This document shows positions 99 to 11,554 of a stretch of 27,188 bases of DNA, piece after piece (positions within the stretch are counted from its first letter, which is position 1; every line of letters begins with the position of its first letter). The stretch lies in the IMG/VR virus record IMGVR_UViG_3300044644_000710, positions 1 through 27,188 of that record. One strand, 5' to 3'. The translations under genes and the position numbers were made by a program. The DNA is from a virus. The notes under the pieces are model-generated. The model searched no databases. It was not told where the DNA came from and saw nothing but the letters and a program-made list of their open reading frames with translations.

Positions 99-111
99 AT
101 GATTATCTTTG
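81..111 (+). promoter_or_regulatory. Bacteroidota promoter for HNH leader 1
   Basis: TTTG at 81-84, a 19-nt spacer, then TATCTTTG at 104-111. This matches the Bacteroidota primary sigma consensus TTTG-N19-21-TAnnTTTG exactly. Transcription should begin a few bases after 111, giving a leader of about 110 nt before the ATG at 227. Confidence 0.8.
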
Positions 112-115
112 CAAA

Positions 116-223
116 GTAGTTAAACCAATGGACGAGATTGGTAAAAGAAACTGGCATCAATGCCACAACATAGCCTCAGATTGGAACGACTCGTCCTCGT
201 TTTGATTTGGGGCTTTTGTTTTT
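116..223 (+). ncRNA. HNH-leader RNA, copy 1, predicted kissing loop
   Basis: Three hairpins can be drawn by hand. SL1: ACCAAT (124-129) / ATTGGT (137-142) with the 7-nt loop GGACGAG (130-136). SL2: TGGCA (152-156) / TGCCA (161-165) with loop TCAA. SL3: 172-189 pairs with 197-214, 18 consecutive Watson-Crick or G-U pairs, capped by the 7-nt loop CTCGTCC (190-196). The SL1 and SL3 loops are perfect reverse complements over all 7 nt, predicting a kissing interaction. SL3 is followed by TTTTGTTTTT, so it also looks like an intrinsic terminator, 12 nt before the ATG. A second copy with the same architecture precedes the other HNH gene (10823-10918). Shared strings are AAAGAAAYTGG, AGCCT, AACGR, CGTTTTG and GGGCTTTT. 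The structure is seen in the sequence; its function (attenuator, translation control, or a separate small RNA) is inference. Confidence 0.75.
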
Positions 224-226
224 AAA

Positions 227-5009: not shown

Positions 5010-5041
5010 TTGCAAATTAGAAATGAATTATTCTATATTTG
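5010..5041 (+). promoter_or_regulatory. Bacteroidota promoter of the glycan cassette
   Basis: TTG at 5010-5012, a 21-nt spacer, TATATTTG at 5034-5041. It is the only good promoter I found ahead of the ten tightly packed plus-strand genes, so they probably form one transcript ending at the terminator at 9700-9726. Confidence 0.7.
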
Positions 5042-5546: not shown

Positions 5547-5733
5547 TCAGTATGGGATTTACTATCCGAAAGGATTACTTCGAGGCGAAAAGGGCCGGAT
5601 CATTAGCCCAGATAGTCAGGTTGTCGTTTTGTCGATTGACAAGGAAGGAACGGCAAATGTTTGTCGATTCGGTGATTACAAGGATTCAATTTATACACAC
5701 ATCAGTAATTTAAGCAAGTGGAAAATCAAATAA
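5530..5733 (+). CDS. Hypothetical small protein
   Basis: A 67-aa protein, not recognised. Its composition is that of a compact beta-rich domain (GRIISPDSQVVVLSIDKEGT). It starts inside the end of the membrane-protein gene and overlaps the following glycosyltransferase by 16 nt. An alternative frame over the same region (5459-5713) exists, but this frame fits the overlap pattern and has the better-placed ATG. Confidence 0.5.
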   Translation: MESPISQYGIYYPKGLLRGEKGRIISPDSQVVVLSIDKEGTANVCRFGDYKDSIYTHISNLSKWKIK

Positions 5734-6404
5734 CAATATGTATCACATCCTGCGGTCGGTGGGATTTGTTGGAACGAACCCTCAAAAGTCTTGTTCAATT
5801 TTGGGATGGTCCAAGTCGGCCAAAATTAATAATTTATGAAGACACAAATAATGACATAGAATTAAGCAAATTTCCTGGTTATTTTTTTCCTGATTTTTTT
5901 GGTGGTGTTGAACTTTCTGGTGGTAAAATAGGCCAAATAGGGGCTATTAGCTATCTTTATTCAAGAGTCACAACCCCTTATATTTTTCATTGTGAAGATG
6001 ACTGGGAGTTTACCAGAACCGGATTCATCCAGAAGTCACTTGCGATTTTGGAAGAAAAGCCAATGACCTGTCAGGTCTGGATTCGTGAACCCAATGACCG
6101 CAATGGTCATCCGGCAATCGGGCAGGTAATCACCTTGGAATCTGGTGTTAAATATCAATTGATGAAGACGGGGTTTAGAGGTGTATGGCATGGCTTCAGT
6201 TTTAATCCTGGTCTTCGCAGGTTATCCGATTACCAGAAACTATTTCCGAAAGGAATGTACGCTGACATCCATTGGTCACCATCCAATCCATTGCAGGCTG
6301 AACAATTAGTTGGCAAGCAATACTTCCGGCATGGATACAGGGCCGCAACACTATTGGAAGGCTATTGTAAGCACATCGGGAACAATAGACACGTTCAGCC
6401 ATGA
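5718..6404 (+). CDS. GT-A fold glycosyltransferase (GT2-like)
   Basis: A 228-aa cytoplasmic glycosyltransferase. The N-terminal strand ITICITSCGRWDLLERTLKSL (residues 4-24) is the usual GT-A nucleotide-binding start. IFHCEDDWEF at 89-98 carries the acidic DxD-like motif for metal and nucleotide sugar. The start is the GTG at 5718; no other plausible start precedes the first beta strand. The ORF ends in an ATGA overlap with the next gene. Donor and acceptor cannot be read from the sequence. Its place among methyltransferases and other transferases points to synthesis or decoration of a glycan. Confidence 0.8.
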   Translation: MENQITICITSCGRWDLLERTLKSLVQFWDGPSRPKLIIYEDTNNDIELSKFPGYFFPDFFGGVELSGGKIGQIGAISYLYSRVTTPYIFHCEDDWEFTRTGFIQKSLAILEEKPMTCQVWIREPNDRNGHPAIGQVITLESGVKYQLMKTGFRGVWHGFSFNPGLRRLSDYQKLFPKGMYADIHWSPSNPLQAEQLVGKQYFRHGYRAATLLEGYCKHIGNNRHVQP

Positions 6405-6694
6405 GCCAATTAAACCTATTCACCGTTGACCCTAAACAGGCCAAATTCGAACGGTATCATGCCGAGAATCCTGAGATTTGGCAACAGTTCAAAGATGCTA
6501 CCTTTGCGTTGATTCGGGTCGGTAGGAATCACTTTAGTGCGGATGCCATCCTTCATTCGATCCGGTTTAATACTGTTATTAGGGGAGGAAAAGACTTCAA
6601 GATCAACAACAACTATTCATCCATGTATTCAAGGATGTTTACGGCTAATTTTCCACAACATAAGGACTTTTTTGAACAGAGAATTTTAAAATGA
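6401..6694 (+). CDS. Hypothetical phage protein
   Basis: A 97-aa protein coupled to the previous gene by ATGA and to the next by a 4-nt overlap. The pattern FERYHAENPEIWQQFKDATFALI, then a histidine and SADAILHSIRF, resembles a small protein seen in many phages and prophages of varied hosts, whose function I do not know. It is soluble and basic. It does not look like a glycan enzyme, so the cassette also carries ordinary phage accessory genes. Confidence 0.6.
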   Translation: MSQLNLFTVDPKQAKFERYHAENPEIWQQFKDATFALIRVGRNHFSADAILHSIRFNTVIRGGKDFKINNNYSSMYSRMFTANFPQHKDFFEQRILK

Positions 6695-7125
6695 TACAAG
6701 CAAACGAATTACGAATTGGCAACATTGCAAAAGATAGAGGCGGTAAAATATTGAAAATTGACCGATTTTATGGAAACAAGATTGAATGCGACATTAAAGG
6801 TATGCCAGATAAAGACCCTGATACCGGAATCAAATTATATTATCATCCACTAACCGAACAGATTCAATTTCTTGAACCAATCCCACTCACCGAAGACTGG
6901 CTTTTGAAAATGCCTTGTGAAATTGGTGAATGGGATTCAGAAACAGAAATGTTTTACTTTGAAAAAAGTGAATTTATCATTGAAAAATTGAGCAATGGAT
7001 ACTTTGTTTTTCGCCCATATTCCACTTGTAATTTTGATGTTAAACTCAAATCGGTTCACCATTGGCAGAACCTTTACTTCGCATTGACCGGAACCGAATT
7101 AGAATTGAAAAATGAAAATAATTGA
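6691..7125 (+). CDS. Conserved phage hypothetical protein
   Basis: A 144-aa protein. The opening MIQANELRIGNIAKDRGGKI and the end VHHWQNLYFALTGTELEL are the two ends of a small protein family common in Bacteroidota phages and prophages, with no known function to my knowledge. The middle is acidic and beta-rich. It overlaps both neighbours (4 nt with the previous gene, 14 nt with the next), consistent with one operon. Confidence 0.65.
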   Translation: MIQANELRIGNIAKDRGGKILKIDRFYGNKIECDIKGMPDKDPDTGIKLYYHPLTEQIQFLEPIPLTEDWLLKMPCEIGEWDSETEMFYFEKSEFIIEKLSNGYFVFRPYSTCNFDVKLKSVHHWQNLYFALTGTELELKNENN

Positions 7126-7606
7126 ATTTAAAAACCACACATACCCTCACTTTCAATCAGAGGGTTTTGCGGCAAGATTTGCCTTTCCTGTTGCTGAAAT
7201 GCTCTGCAAAGGAAATGGTGTTGATGTTGGATGCATGAAGCCTGAATGGGCCTTTCCAAATGCGAAACCGATTGACATTGCATTTGATGACGGATTCCAT
7301 GCACTCAATTTGCCCGACAATCTGGATTACATATTCAGTAGTCATTGCCTTGAACATCTGGATAACTACGTGACGGCATTGGAGTACTGGCACAAACAAT
7401 TGAAACCAGGGGGAATACTGTTCCTGTATTTACCGGACATGAATAGTCAGGTCTATTGGAGACCTTGGCACAATAGAAAGCACATTCACTTTCTCTTTCC
7501 TGAATTGATGCGCCTGTATACTCAGGATTGTGGCCTATGGGAAAATGTCTTTGTGTCTGATACTGATTTAAATTCAAGTTTTTACTTTGTAGCTGAAAAG
7601 AAATAA
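7112..7606 (+). CDS. SAM-dependent methyltransferase, class I
   Basis: A 164-aa protein with a compact Rossmann methyltransferase. Motif I is reduced to GVDVGC (residues 36-41). The acidic strand is IDIAFDDG (54-61). The post-motif element is SSHCLEHLDN (76-85), and motif IV/V is LKPGGILFLYLPD (97-109), as in Methyltransf_11-type enzymes acting on small molecules, sugars or lipids. It is shorter than most (usually 200-250 aa), lacking extra substrate-binding domains. It is coupled by TAATG to the FkbM gene. The substrate is unknown; a sugar or the end of a glycan is a fair guess from context. Confidence 0.8.
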   Translation: MKIIEFKNHTYPHFQSEGFAARFAFPVAEMLCKGNGVDVGCMKPEWAFPNAKPIDIAFDDGFHALNLPDNLDYIFSSHCLEHLDNYVTALEYWHKQLKPGGILFLYLPDMNSQVYWRPWHNRKHIHFLFPELMRLYTQDCGLWENVFVSDTDLNSSFYFVAEKK

Positions 7607-8325
7607 TGGAAGTCCAATTAAAAGAGTTCAAGTTCGATGTTTATGGAGATCCAATTTTCTGGTTGGGCGTTGAAGCATGGGAACCGGAAACATTCGAGAT
7701 CGTAAAGCGATATGCCGATCAATCAAAGTCATTCATTGACATTGGTGCATGGAATGGAGTTGTCAGCCTTTACGCATCCCATTTGTTTAATAATGTGGTT
7801 GCTATTGAGCCGGATGTAATCGCATTTGAGAAGCTATCAAAAAACATTCAGTCAAATTCATGCCTCAATGTGACTTGTCGGAATGTGGCTATTTCAAACA
7901 CAAACGGAAGTTCAATATTGAACCTTTCCAACGCAGGGGATTCCATGAGCAGCTTGCTACCAAGAGATACACAATGGTTTCCTACGGTTGATTTCCAGGG
8001 TGTAGAAACCAAGAAATTCGAAACAATCATTAAAGGTTCAAGTGTTGAAATCGGCCTGATTAAAATGGACATTGAAGGAGGGGAGTTACTTGTTATTCCT
8101 GATATGTTGGAATACTTGGAGGCCCAAAAGACACCAATCTACATTTCATTTCATCCGTTCTGGTTTCCCGAAAATTCAAAAGAAACAAAAATTGAATATT
8201 TTGCATCAATGCTTTTCGGCATTTATCCAGTTGTTAGAGATGGGCAATTCAATGAGGTCACAAAGCAACAATTCATTGAAGGTATGCAGTCAAATTCATT
8301 CTCTTACGTTTTTGATACAAAATGA
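7606..8325 (+). CDS. FkbM-family methyltransferase
   Basis: A 239-aa class I methyltransferase. Motif I is FIDIGAWNGVVSLY (43-56), the acidic cofactor residues are AIEPD (66-70), and the FkbM hallmark is IKMDIEGGE (152-160). These enzymes O-methylate sugars and polyketides and are frequent in surface-polysaccharide gene clusters. It starts at the A of the preceding stop (TAATG) and overlaps the next gene by 4 nt. Placement between a methyltransferase and a GT2 enzyme supports a role in a methylated glycan. Confidence 0.88.
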   Translation: MEVQLKEFKFDVYGDPIFWLGVEAWEPETFEIVKRYADQSKSFIDIGAWNGVVSLYASHLFNNVVAIEPDVIAFEKLSKNIQSNSCLNVTCRNVAISNTNGSSILNLSNAGDSMSSLLPRDTQWFPTVDFQGVETKKFETIIKGSSVEIGLIKMDIEGGELLVIPDMLEYLEAQKTPIYISFHPFWFPENSKETKIEYFASMLFGIYPVVRDGQFNEVTKQQFIEGMQSNSFSYVFDTK

Positions 8326-8972
8326 AAACGGGCCTTTTAATAACCACCTTTAACCGTCCTGATTATTTGTCTCAATGTCTGGAATCGGTTTCCAATATTG
8401 CGTTCAATGGTGAACTTGAAATCCTTATTGTCGATGATGCTAGTACAGATCAGGAGACTATTGAATTGATAAATTCCTTTTGTGAAAAGTGGCCCAATGT
8501 TCGGAAGATGTTTTTACCAAAAAACAAAGGAATTGCAAACGCATTACGAATCGGATTCAATTATCTGTTTGCTTCCGGTTGCCACAATGTAATCAACCTT
8601 GATGCTGATGCGATTGTAAAGCCTGAATTTATTGATGTTTTGACCACTTTGAAAAACACATATCCGTTATACATCATTTCAGGATTTAACACGCAAACGG
8701 TTGATCTTGGAACTGGAAAGGTTCGGCATAGAACCCTTTCAATTTATCAGGATCATTGCACAAAGGAATCCATTGGTGGCATCAATATGCTCATTGATCA
8801 GAAACAGTATAAAACCATTGTTTTGCCGTCTTTACAAAAAACTGGACATTGGGATTGGAACGTCTGTAAAATGGTCAAAGAGTTTATTGTTTCAACTCCG
8901 TCCGTTGTTCAGCACATCGGAATTCAAAAGGGATTAAACATGAATAACCCTGATGTAGCTTTTGATTTTTAG
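8322..8972 (+). CDS. Family 2 glycosyltransferase
   Basis: A 216-aa classic GT2 enzyme: LLITTFNRPDYLSQCLESV at residues 5-23, VDDAST (37-42), and INLDADAIV (91-99) holding the metal-binding DxD-type motif. Further on, WDW (in GHWDWNVCK) may supply the catalytic acidic residue. It is single-domain with no membrane segment, so it is probably cytoplasmic. ATGA overlap with the FkbM gene; 3 nt before the next gene. Sugar specificity cannot be read. Confidence 0.88.
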   Translation: MKTGLLITTFNRPDYLSQCLESVSNIAFNGELEILIVDDASTDQETIELINSFCEKWPNVRKMFLPKNKGIANALRIGFNYLFASGCHNVINLDADAIVKPEFIDVLTTLKNTYPLYIISGFNTQTVDLGTGKVRHRTLSIYQDHCTKESIGGINMLIDQKQYKTIVLPSLQKTGHWDWNVCKMVKEFIVSTPSVVQHIGIQKGLNMNNPDVAFDF

Positions 8973-8975
8973 CCT

Positions 8976-9674
8976 ATGGCAGTCGTTATTTTACAACCAC
9001 ACGGGTTGGGAGATCACATTTTCTGCATAAGTCTTGCCCATCAAATTGCAGACAGGCAGGAAATCATTTGGCCCGTACTGGATCACTTTCTTCCCGGACT
9101 TCGTTTTGCATATCCTCAAATAAATTGGGTTCGTGTTGGCTCACTTGGTCGGCAGATTGAAGAATTTAAACGTATTGGATTCATAAGAGGTCATACAATC
9201 GTTCCAATTCGTTGGGCTGATCAACTTACCAAAGTAGTTTATAAGGATTGTATGAGGTCCAAATATGACCTTTATGGATTAGACTGGAATACCTGGAATC
9301 ATTTCACATTCAAAAGGAATCATGAGAAAGAATCACAACTGTTTTCGGATGTCTTAAAGTTGCAATTGGATGAACCATTCCGGTTGATTAATCGCAGGTT
9401 CACAAGCTTGGAATCCAAATCGGTTAATATTCCAGATAGCAAAGAAATCCGCAATGTTGAGATGCAATCAATTAAAGGGTTCAGCTTGTTTGACTGGTCA
9501 AGAGTTATTTCAAGAGCATCCGAGATTCACACGGTCGGAACGTCAATCAATTACATTATTGAACTCTTGTCGATTCAGGCTGAAGAAGTCGTGCTTTACA
9601 AAAGATTGCCCGATGAGAATCATTATCAGAATTATGATTACATCCTAAAACGGCATCAATACATTTACACATAA
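8976..9674 (+). CDS. GT-B-like (heptosyltransferase-like) glycosyltransferase
   Basis: A 232-aa protein. The N-terminal LQPHGLGDHIFCISL (residues 6-20) is a GT9/ADP-heptose transferase-style G-LGD loop. FDWSRVISRASEIHTVGTSI (172-191) resembles the C-terminal nucleotide-sugar site, with a late Ser/Thr-rich TS pair and E196. It is shorter than true heptosyltransferases (about 320-350 aa), so it may be a minimised relative or act on a different substrate. It is the last gene of the cassette and is followed by a strong terminator. Confidence 0.65.
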   Translation: MAVVILQPHGLGDHIFCISLAHQIADRQEIIWPVLDHFLPGLRFAYPQINWVRVGSLGRQIEEFKRIGFIRGHTIVPIRWADQLTKVVYKDCMRSKYDLYGLDWNTWNHFTFKRNHEKESQLFSDVLKLQLDEPFRLINRRFTSLESKSVNIPDSKEIRNVEMQSIKGFSLFDWSRVISRASEIHTVGTSINYIIELLSIQAEEVVLYKRLPDENHYQNYDYILKRHQYIYT

Positions 9675-10787: not shown

Positions 10788-10819
10788 TTTGTAAAAATAC
10801 AGCAATTTTTGTATCTTTG
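10788..10819 (+). promoter_or_regulatory. Bacteroidota promoter for HNH leader 2
   Basis: TTTG at 10788-10791, a 20-nt spacer, TATCTTTG at 10812-10819. The -7 box is identical to that of the other HNH unit. It lies just outside the divergent structural gene, whose ATG is at 10775-10777. Confidence 0.8.
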
Positions 10820-10822
10820 AAC

Positions 10823-10918
10823 TGTTGCGGAGTAGAGGCCAAAACAAAGAAATTGGTTTTTTAACCTTTAAGCCTGGCGAACGGTCCTCTACCCGTTTTG
10901 CCGGGCTTTTAAATTTTT
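10823..10918 (+). ncRNA. HNH-leader RNA, copy 2, predicted kissing loop
   Basis: Same layout as 116-223. SL1: TGTT (10823-10826) / AACA (10843-10846) and GG (10829-10830) / CC (10839-10840) around a 2x2 internal loop, capped by a loop holding GTAGAGG (10832-10838). SL2: GGTT (10855-10858) / AACC (10863-10866), loop TTTT. SL3: 10871-10884 pairs with 10893-10907 (14 pairs, one bulged T), loop TCCTCTAC (10885-10892). CCTCTAC (10886-10892) is the exact reverse complement of GTAGAGG in SL1. Relative to copy 1 the kissing 7-mers and much of the stems changed while complementarity was kept, for example the last pair of AACGR/YCGTT is A-T in one copy and G-C in the other. The run TTTTAAATTTTT then leads directly into the ATG. 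SL1 is weaker here than in copy 1, and its first bases lie at the likely transcription start. Confidence 0.7.
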
Positions 10919-11554
10919 ATGCAAGTAGATTATAGAAAAGAATTAAGAAGAATTGAACGAGAAAAAAACAAAGTTGAAATTGAATCATTGCCCGGTGAAA
11001 TCTGGAAAGATGTAGTTGGTCTTGAAGATTCTTACATGGTCAGTAATCTTGGAAGGGTGAAATCAAAGGAAAGAACTATTCAGCAAATTAGTAGATGGGG
11101 CAGTGAAATGAAAAAGCCTTATCCTGAAAAAATAATAGTCCCTTCTTCCAATCGTGCTTATTTAATTATTGGATTAAGCAAAAGTAAAAAATTGACAGTT
11201 CACAGGCTGGTTGCTACACATTTTATTCCAAACCCAGAAAACAAGCCAGAAATAAACCATATTAATGGGATTAAATTTGACAATAGGGTAGAAAATTTAG
11301 AATGGGTTACGAGGTCAGAAAATACAATTCATGGATTTAAAACTGGACTAATAAAAACAAAAAAAGGTTCTGAAAGAAAAGATAGTACGCCAATATCTCA
11401 ATTTGATTTAGATGGAAATTGGATAAGAGATTGGGAATCTCAAAGACAAGTTCAAAGAGAAACTGGTTTGAGGCAAGGCAACATAAACCACGTTTTAAAA
11501 GGAAGATGCAAAAAAGCACATGGGTTTTTATGGAAATACAAAGAATCTATTTAA
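10919..11554 (+). CDS. Free-standing HNH homing endonuclease, second copy
   Basis: A 211-aa paralogue of the HNH protein at 227-793. A basic helical extension (residues 1-23, KELRRIEREKNK) precedes NUMOD4 (27-49, IWKDVVG ... YMVSNLGRVKS). The HNH_3 core spans 91-139: H95 in VHRLVATHF, NHINGIKFDNRVENLEW at 113-129, and ENTIHG. The C-terminal NUMOD1-like module starts at about 158 (SQFD, GNW, GNINHVLKG, HGFLW). The ATG is immediately downstream of the structured leader without a Shine-Dalgarno sequence. Its stop overlaps the stop of the opposing MuF gene: the ORFs share 8 nt tail to tail. It has no terminator of its own that I can see. Confidence 0.92.
   Translation: MQVDYRKELRRIEREKNKVEIESLPGEIWKDVVGLEDSYMVSNLGRVKSKERTIQQISRWGSEMKKPYPEKIIVPSSNRAYLIIGLSKSKKLTVHRLVATHFIPNPENKPEINHINGIKFDNRVENLEWVTRSENTIHGFKTGLIKTKKGSERKDSTPISQFDLDGNWIRDWESQRQVQRETGLRQGNINHVLKGRCKKAHGFLWKYKESI

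Follow-up and report, generated by a model that had tools for sequence, protein, structure and literature searches.

A conserved 5' leader RNA, whose upstream 7-nt loop is predicted to pair with the loop of a terminator-like hairpin next to the start codon, precedes a phage homing-type nuclease gene. The same layout recurs with different but matching loop letters before every such nuclease gene and several replication-linked genes found in a lineage of uncultured Bacteroidota-type phages, the host being inferred from the promoter form only. The stretch analysed (hereafter the window) comprises the 27,188 nt of the uncultured virus record IMGVR_UViG_3300044644_000710, positions 1 to 27,188; the leaders and genes given with coordinates are on the plus strand of the window. 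The earlier note had described a promoter, three hairpins and an exact loop complementarity in front of one HNH gene and a recurrence of this design in front of the other, and this observation was confirmed in the raw sequence and proved to be more widespread than reported. Its interpretation was supported only in part, since the loop pairing is selected for and the element is conserved as RNA, whereas a definition as HNH leader is not supported.

The first leader, type C1, occupies positions 112-226, with the transcription start inferred at about 112-118. The Bacteroidota-type promoter at 81-111 consists of TTTG at 81-84 as a plausible -33 element, a 19-nt spacer and the -7 box TATCTTTG at 104-111, in agreement with the consensus TAnnTTTG of the phylum. 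A separate terminator-like hairpin (AGAGGGG...CCCCTCT followed by CTTTTT, 72-99) overlaps the -33 region. Hairpin H1 (124-142) is formed by ACCAAT 124-129 and ATTGGT 137-142 with loop GGACGAG 130-136, H2 (152-165) by TGGCA 152-156 and TGCCA 161-165, and H3 (172-214) by 18 unbroken pairs, 172-189 with 197-214, with loop CTCGTCC 190-196, the exact complement of the H1 loop. A U-rich tract follows at 214-223, and the ATG at 227 opens gene 1 (227-793, 188 aa). The terminator-like character of H3, with its U-tract 8-14 nt before the AUG, was missed in the earlier note and is the best clue to function. The minimum-energy fold contains the same three hairpins (z = -2.9 against dinucleotide shuffles), and only 10 of 20,000 dinucleotide shuffles of the leader hold a 7-nt complement to the loop of a long hairpin.

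A homologous leader, type C2, is located at 10823-10918 in front of gene 2 (10919-11554, 211 aa), with its -7 box TATCTTTG at 10812-10819. The strand GTAGAGG (10832-10838) pairs with the loop CCTCTAC (10886-10892) of H3 (10870-10908), which is followed by TTTTAAATTTTT and the ATG at 10919, and H2 is found at 10855-10866 (GGTT...AACC). In this copy H1 is weak (UGUUG...CAAAACA with bulges) and H3 has one bulge, and thus it fails the strict shuffle test mentioned above, although relatives have an unbroken H3. According to Pfam, both downstream genes encode NUMOD4 + HNH_3 homing-type endonucleases.

Pattern scans of IMG/VR revealed further C2 leaders on 11 other contigs. Aligned with 10 relatives, the C2 leader of the window shows 93% mean column identity. 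Counting on 11 aligned leaders, the loop pairing is intact in all (7 of 7 pairs in all 10 distinct sequences), one A-U pair is replaced by U-A in 4 of the 10 distinct sequences, and H3 has two further pairs changed on both sides. Homologues of C1 occur in the related loci L025 and L026 (L numbers designate phage loci retrieved for comparison). In L087 a second HNH gene is preceded by a leader with the same H2 as C1 but a different H1 and H3, with loops GGTGAAG and CTTCACC (type C3). Covariance models built from one type find the other types: model R1 finds C3 at E 1.6e-4 and C1 at 0.04, and model R2 finds most C2 members at 6e-4 to 0.02. In the joint alignment of H2 and H3, 99.1% of cells pair and 13 of 22 pairs have changes on both sides (in H2 at two of four modelled pairs), values reached by none of 500 shuffles. 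Since that alignment was fitted to the model, the first number is inflated, whereas the covariation among C2 leaders alone does not depend on it. MAFFT misaligns H1 of C1 and C3, and covariation of H1 was therefore judged by eye and not counted.

With the minor-capsid-like protein next to C2 as query, 66 related phage loci were retrieved, in which models R1 and R3 found further types: C4 in L177 and L179, C5 in L178 with loops GTACCAG/CTGGTAC, and C6 in L194 and L195 with GGTAGGAG/CTCCTACC. In C3, C4 and C5 the H1 of C1 is replaced by other stems; C1, C3 and C5 have 7-nt loop pairs. The RNA forms of the pairs GGACGAG/CUCGUCC, GUAGAGG/CCUCUAC, GGUGAAG/CUUCACC and GUACCAG/CUGGUAC illustrate that the loop pairing survives complete sequence replacement in independent leader types, as observed across C1-C6, which is why it is regarded as selected for. 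Reading upstream of the remaining HNH genes showed a second layout, D, in which a 10-nt strand at the very 5' end pairs with the loop of a start-proximal hairpin in two unrelated versions, GCTCGTCCGA and GCGTATCCGT. C6 precedes a DUF6291 gene, and types E and F, which carry an additional 5' hairpin such as GCCGAAAGGC, precede DUF6291, DnaD-like and small unknown genes. The class thus belongs to a phage lineage and not to HNH proteins.

A scan demanding TAnn(n)TTTG, a complement of 7 nt or longer, an enclosing hairpin, TTTT and an ATG opening a frame gave 44 hits (33 distinct) in 779 kb of this lineage, against 0, 0, 0, 1 and 1 in five codon-shuffled controls and none in 930 kb of other loci. 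Four of the 33 distinct hits (L025 TTCTTTG, L190, L195 CTTGAAA, and L223) look spurious, and about 29 look real. As the scanner was designed after the leaders had been seen, the count describes recurrence and is not an independent discovery rate, while the controls measure chance. Due to the fact that many of the other loci come from phages with other promoter types, the HNH comparison was repeated without the promoter demand: all 21 distinct NUMOD4-HNH genes of the lineage have the design, against 3 of 33 elsewhere, which look like chance, and an origin of the leader as part of the NUMOD4-HNH family at large was therefore rejected. The 21 HNH genes share ancestry and are not independent trials, and 12 of the loci were retrieved by leader patterns, in contrast to the 66 loci retrieved by the minor-capsid-like protein.

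A match to an existing Rfam family had been named beforehand as a refutation; none was obtained for the whole window at gathering cut-offs, and no credible one at permissive settings. HEARO was absent also from the permissive lists. Neither tRNA nor tmRNA was detected. No nucleotide match to a leader and no protein match for the major capsid or portal protein was found in named phages. A scan of cellular genome contigs with the C2 pattern gave only cytochrome-assembly coding sequence, a pattern for the E/F 5' hairpin gave none, and the only hit of R1 in 395 sampled Bacteroidota genomes is an ordinary terminator after a ribosomal protein gene, so the base of H3 looks like a host terminator. A guide or scaffold RNA for the HNH protein (OMEGA/HEARO-like), suggested merely by the location upstream of an HNH gene, is not supported and very unlikely: besides the absent Rfam match, the proteins are NUMOD4 + HNH_3 of 160-211 aa and not called as IscB (RuvC + HNH), the leader serves unrelated proteins too, and there is no variable guide segment, since the conserved block starts at the inferred transcription start. 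In this respect the earlier note, which saw no IscB/HEARO arrangement and knew no named class, was right.

Conservation peaks in the transcribed leader. Among 12 C2 loci, mean pairwise identity is 91.6% in the leader, against 68.9% in -75 to -13 and 64.0% in the first 90 nt of coding sequence, where shuffled sequences give 58-60%. L084 and L088 have identical leaders over proteins that are 49% identical, and L082 and L086 have 99% identical leaders over unrelated proteins (22%). So what is kept is the transcribed leader and not the gene. The L082 gene (8108-8614, plus strand) encodes a NUMOD4-HNH protein with a C-terminal helix-turn-helix matching Sigma70_r4. The 173-aa protein of L086 (3902-4423, minus strand), situated behind a C2 leader in place of an HNH gene, carries a DPPY motif but has no Pfam match, and its assignment as a putative N-methyltransferase is a reading from the motif. 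In L101 (8665-9212, plus strand) the HNH gene behind an intact C2 leader is broken by a stop at codon 4, whereas the leader is unchanged.

All C2 leaders lie at one site, convergent with the minor-capsid-like gene. In the window, an inserted cassette (spacer with -7 box, leader, and HNH gene) is inferred at 10801-11546 between a 350-aa structural gene and the minor-capsid-like gene; it begins about 20 nt before the inferred transcription start and runs through the HNH gene. In L167, L172, L175, and L180-L183 the site is empty, with about 30 nt separating the two structural genes. In L168, L170, L174, and L198 the same site, a cargo hotspot, holds a C5 DNA methyltransferase gene with a plain, short leader. 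This represents a natural control: cargo at this site does not need the structured leader, yet nuclease cargo always has it. Different ORFs behind nearly identical leaders at one site could also point to a DNA-level element, i.e., a recombination hook or target for cassette swapping with an incidental RNA fold, but the loop and stem covariation across types, the promoter-to-AUG layout and the C5 methyltransferase cassettes lacking such a leader make this quite unlikely. The glycosyltransferase cluster in the window likewise has a plain A-rich leader after its promoter at 5034. A block of glycosyltransferase and methyltransferase-like genes at 5718-9674 of the window is located on the plus strand inside the minus-strand structural cluster and is variable in content among relatives.

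The order promoter, 5' pairing element, hairpin with complementary loop, U-tract, and AUG is fixed, and a promoter followed within 100-140 nt by a terminator-like hairpin and then the gene is the plan of an attenuator. We therefore tentatively favour a cis-acting leader with conditional termination, although this reading falls just short of being more likely than not. In this view, transcription would start just after TAnnTTTG, H1 would fold first and present a 7-10 nt loop (or a single strand in the D types), and the loop of the emerging H3 would then pair with H1, whereupon H3 with its U-tract would act as a leaky, kiss-tuned terminator immediately before the AUG, so that only a controlled fraction of transcripts would reach the nuclease gene. 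The hairpins, the loop complementarity with its covariation, the order of elements, the lineage-wide recurrence and, as deduced from the empty sites, cassette insertion at one site are established from sequence. That the loops physically pair, that H3 terminates, that the kiss changes the efficiency, be it by favouring or by blocking termination, and that the purpose is to limit or time nuclease and replication-gene expression is inferred in the absence of transcript data. H3 of C1 was called terminator-like, and U-runs of 5-8 occur in most members of D, E and F. U-tracts lie next to the AUG in all types, often without the A at -3 that favours initiation in Flavobacterium (PMC6847099), which suggests that the U-run is kept for something other than translation. 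On the other hand, the U-tract of C2 is only UUUU before GAA/AAA and a generic terminator scan did not call the C2 hairpin of the window, long G-U-rich stems of 15-18 bp are unusual for intrinsic terminators, and in the folds inspected, which were no exhaustive search, no alternative antiterminator fold common to the types was seen. The constant short distance from H3 to the AUG is not needed for attenuation and would suit translational control equally well.

Translational control, in which the kissed H1-H3 structure ending 8-14 nt before the AUG limits or times ribosome loading, the U-rich stretch serves as landing site and termination plays no part, is the strongest alternative but appears rather unlikely. 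It would agree with the nearly constant H3-to-AUG distance across unrelated leader types and with the tuning of translation by secondary structure in Flavobacterium (PMC6847099). T4-type homing endonucleases (I-TevI, segB, mobE) are translationally regulated by RNA hairpins, and seg43 of Aeromonas phage 25 has a very stable hairpin just upstream of its RBS (PMC2988022). Common to both is a stable RNA structure immediately before a phage homing endonuclease gene, thought to restrain expression, but the T4 type is a single hairpin hiding a Shine-Dalgarno site on early transcripts. Here, three hairpins, a loop-loop pair, an own promoter, a U-tract and no SD, which is not expected in the phylum (PMC6847099), are found, also before replication genes. 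Furthermore, the AUG and the preceding 9-13 nt lie outside H3, the start region is not sequestered in the fold of C1, and U-tracts of terminator type are kept. In D and E leaders a short upstream ORF (MKTxK...) crosses H3 and could unfold it by its translation. In case of the E-type leaders L202:16860-17000, L199:10845-10985, and L197 near 20713, this ORF reads MKxLKxPxGKYL... and in L202 and L197 appears to run into the main ATG with an ATGA overlap, possibly allowing translational coupling. However, no upstream ORF is present in C2 and none is conserved among C types, and a leader peptide as a general feature was rejected for the C types, whereas it remains possible for D and E.

Two further readings are unlikely. 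The folded leader could act like HK022 putRNA, a phage-encoded structured RNA made right after an early promoter that binds RNA polymerase (PMC9378689), and render the polymerase resistant to H3 and later terminators, so that these genes could be read against opposing operons; in the window the HNH genes indeed lie antisense to structural operons. However, put RNAs have two hairpins with shared sequence and a defined RNAP-binding shape, whereas here three hairpins occur, the pairing is between H1 and a terminator-like hairpin, and H1 and H3 share little sequence between types. A stand-alone regulatory small RNA of about 100 nt ending at H3, with the downstream gene merely benefiting from read-through, is compatible with the own promoter and the terminator-like end. 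Yet the AUG always follows 8-14 nt after H3, each phage carries leaders with private loop pairs, and different types share too little sequence for a common trans target.

The loop pairs are strong (-9 to -18 kcal/mol as duplexes) and cross-pairing between leaders of the same phage is weak (-3 or weaker), which fits private, intramolecular use, although duplex energies ignore loop geometry. Two fully complementary 7-nt loops, as in C1, are also present in kissing complexes of the ColE1 RNAI/RNAII type, which form between a sense and an antisense RNA, whereas the pairing is apparently intramolecular here. In the IncI-alpha repZ leader pseudoknot, a loop of an upstream hairpin pairs with a hairpin next to the start codon of a replication gene, with a leader ORF comparable to the E type; in the present case no antisense RNA and no homology is shown, a U-tract is present and most cases precede nucleases. 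Both the ColE1 and the IncI system serve as comparisons of the mode of action only. Kissing loops between two RNAs are familiar, but a recurring cis design that ties the 5' end of a transcript to the loop of a start-proximal terminator is absent from Rfam, and no description was found in the open literature searched, which lacks most subscription journals. It is tempting to speculate, though less likely than not, that the lineage uses a modular control system in which each regulated gene, replication initiator or homing nuclease, has a private, mutually orthogonal loop pair of this kind, and that incoming mobile nuclease genes, always found behind such a module, are controlled by it after transcription initiation without a dedicated protein. 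The occurrence before every homing-type nuclease found in the lineage and before replication genes makes a testable proposal for how phages keep mobile nucleases under control without a protein regulator, and such leaders would also give orthogonal, protein-free expression modules for Bacteroidota, where genetic tools are few.
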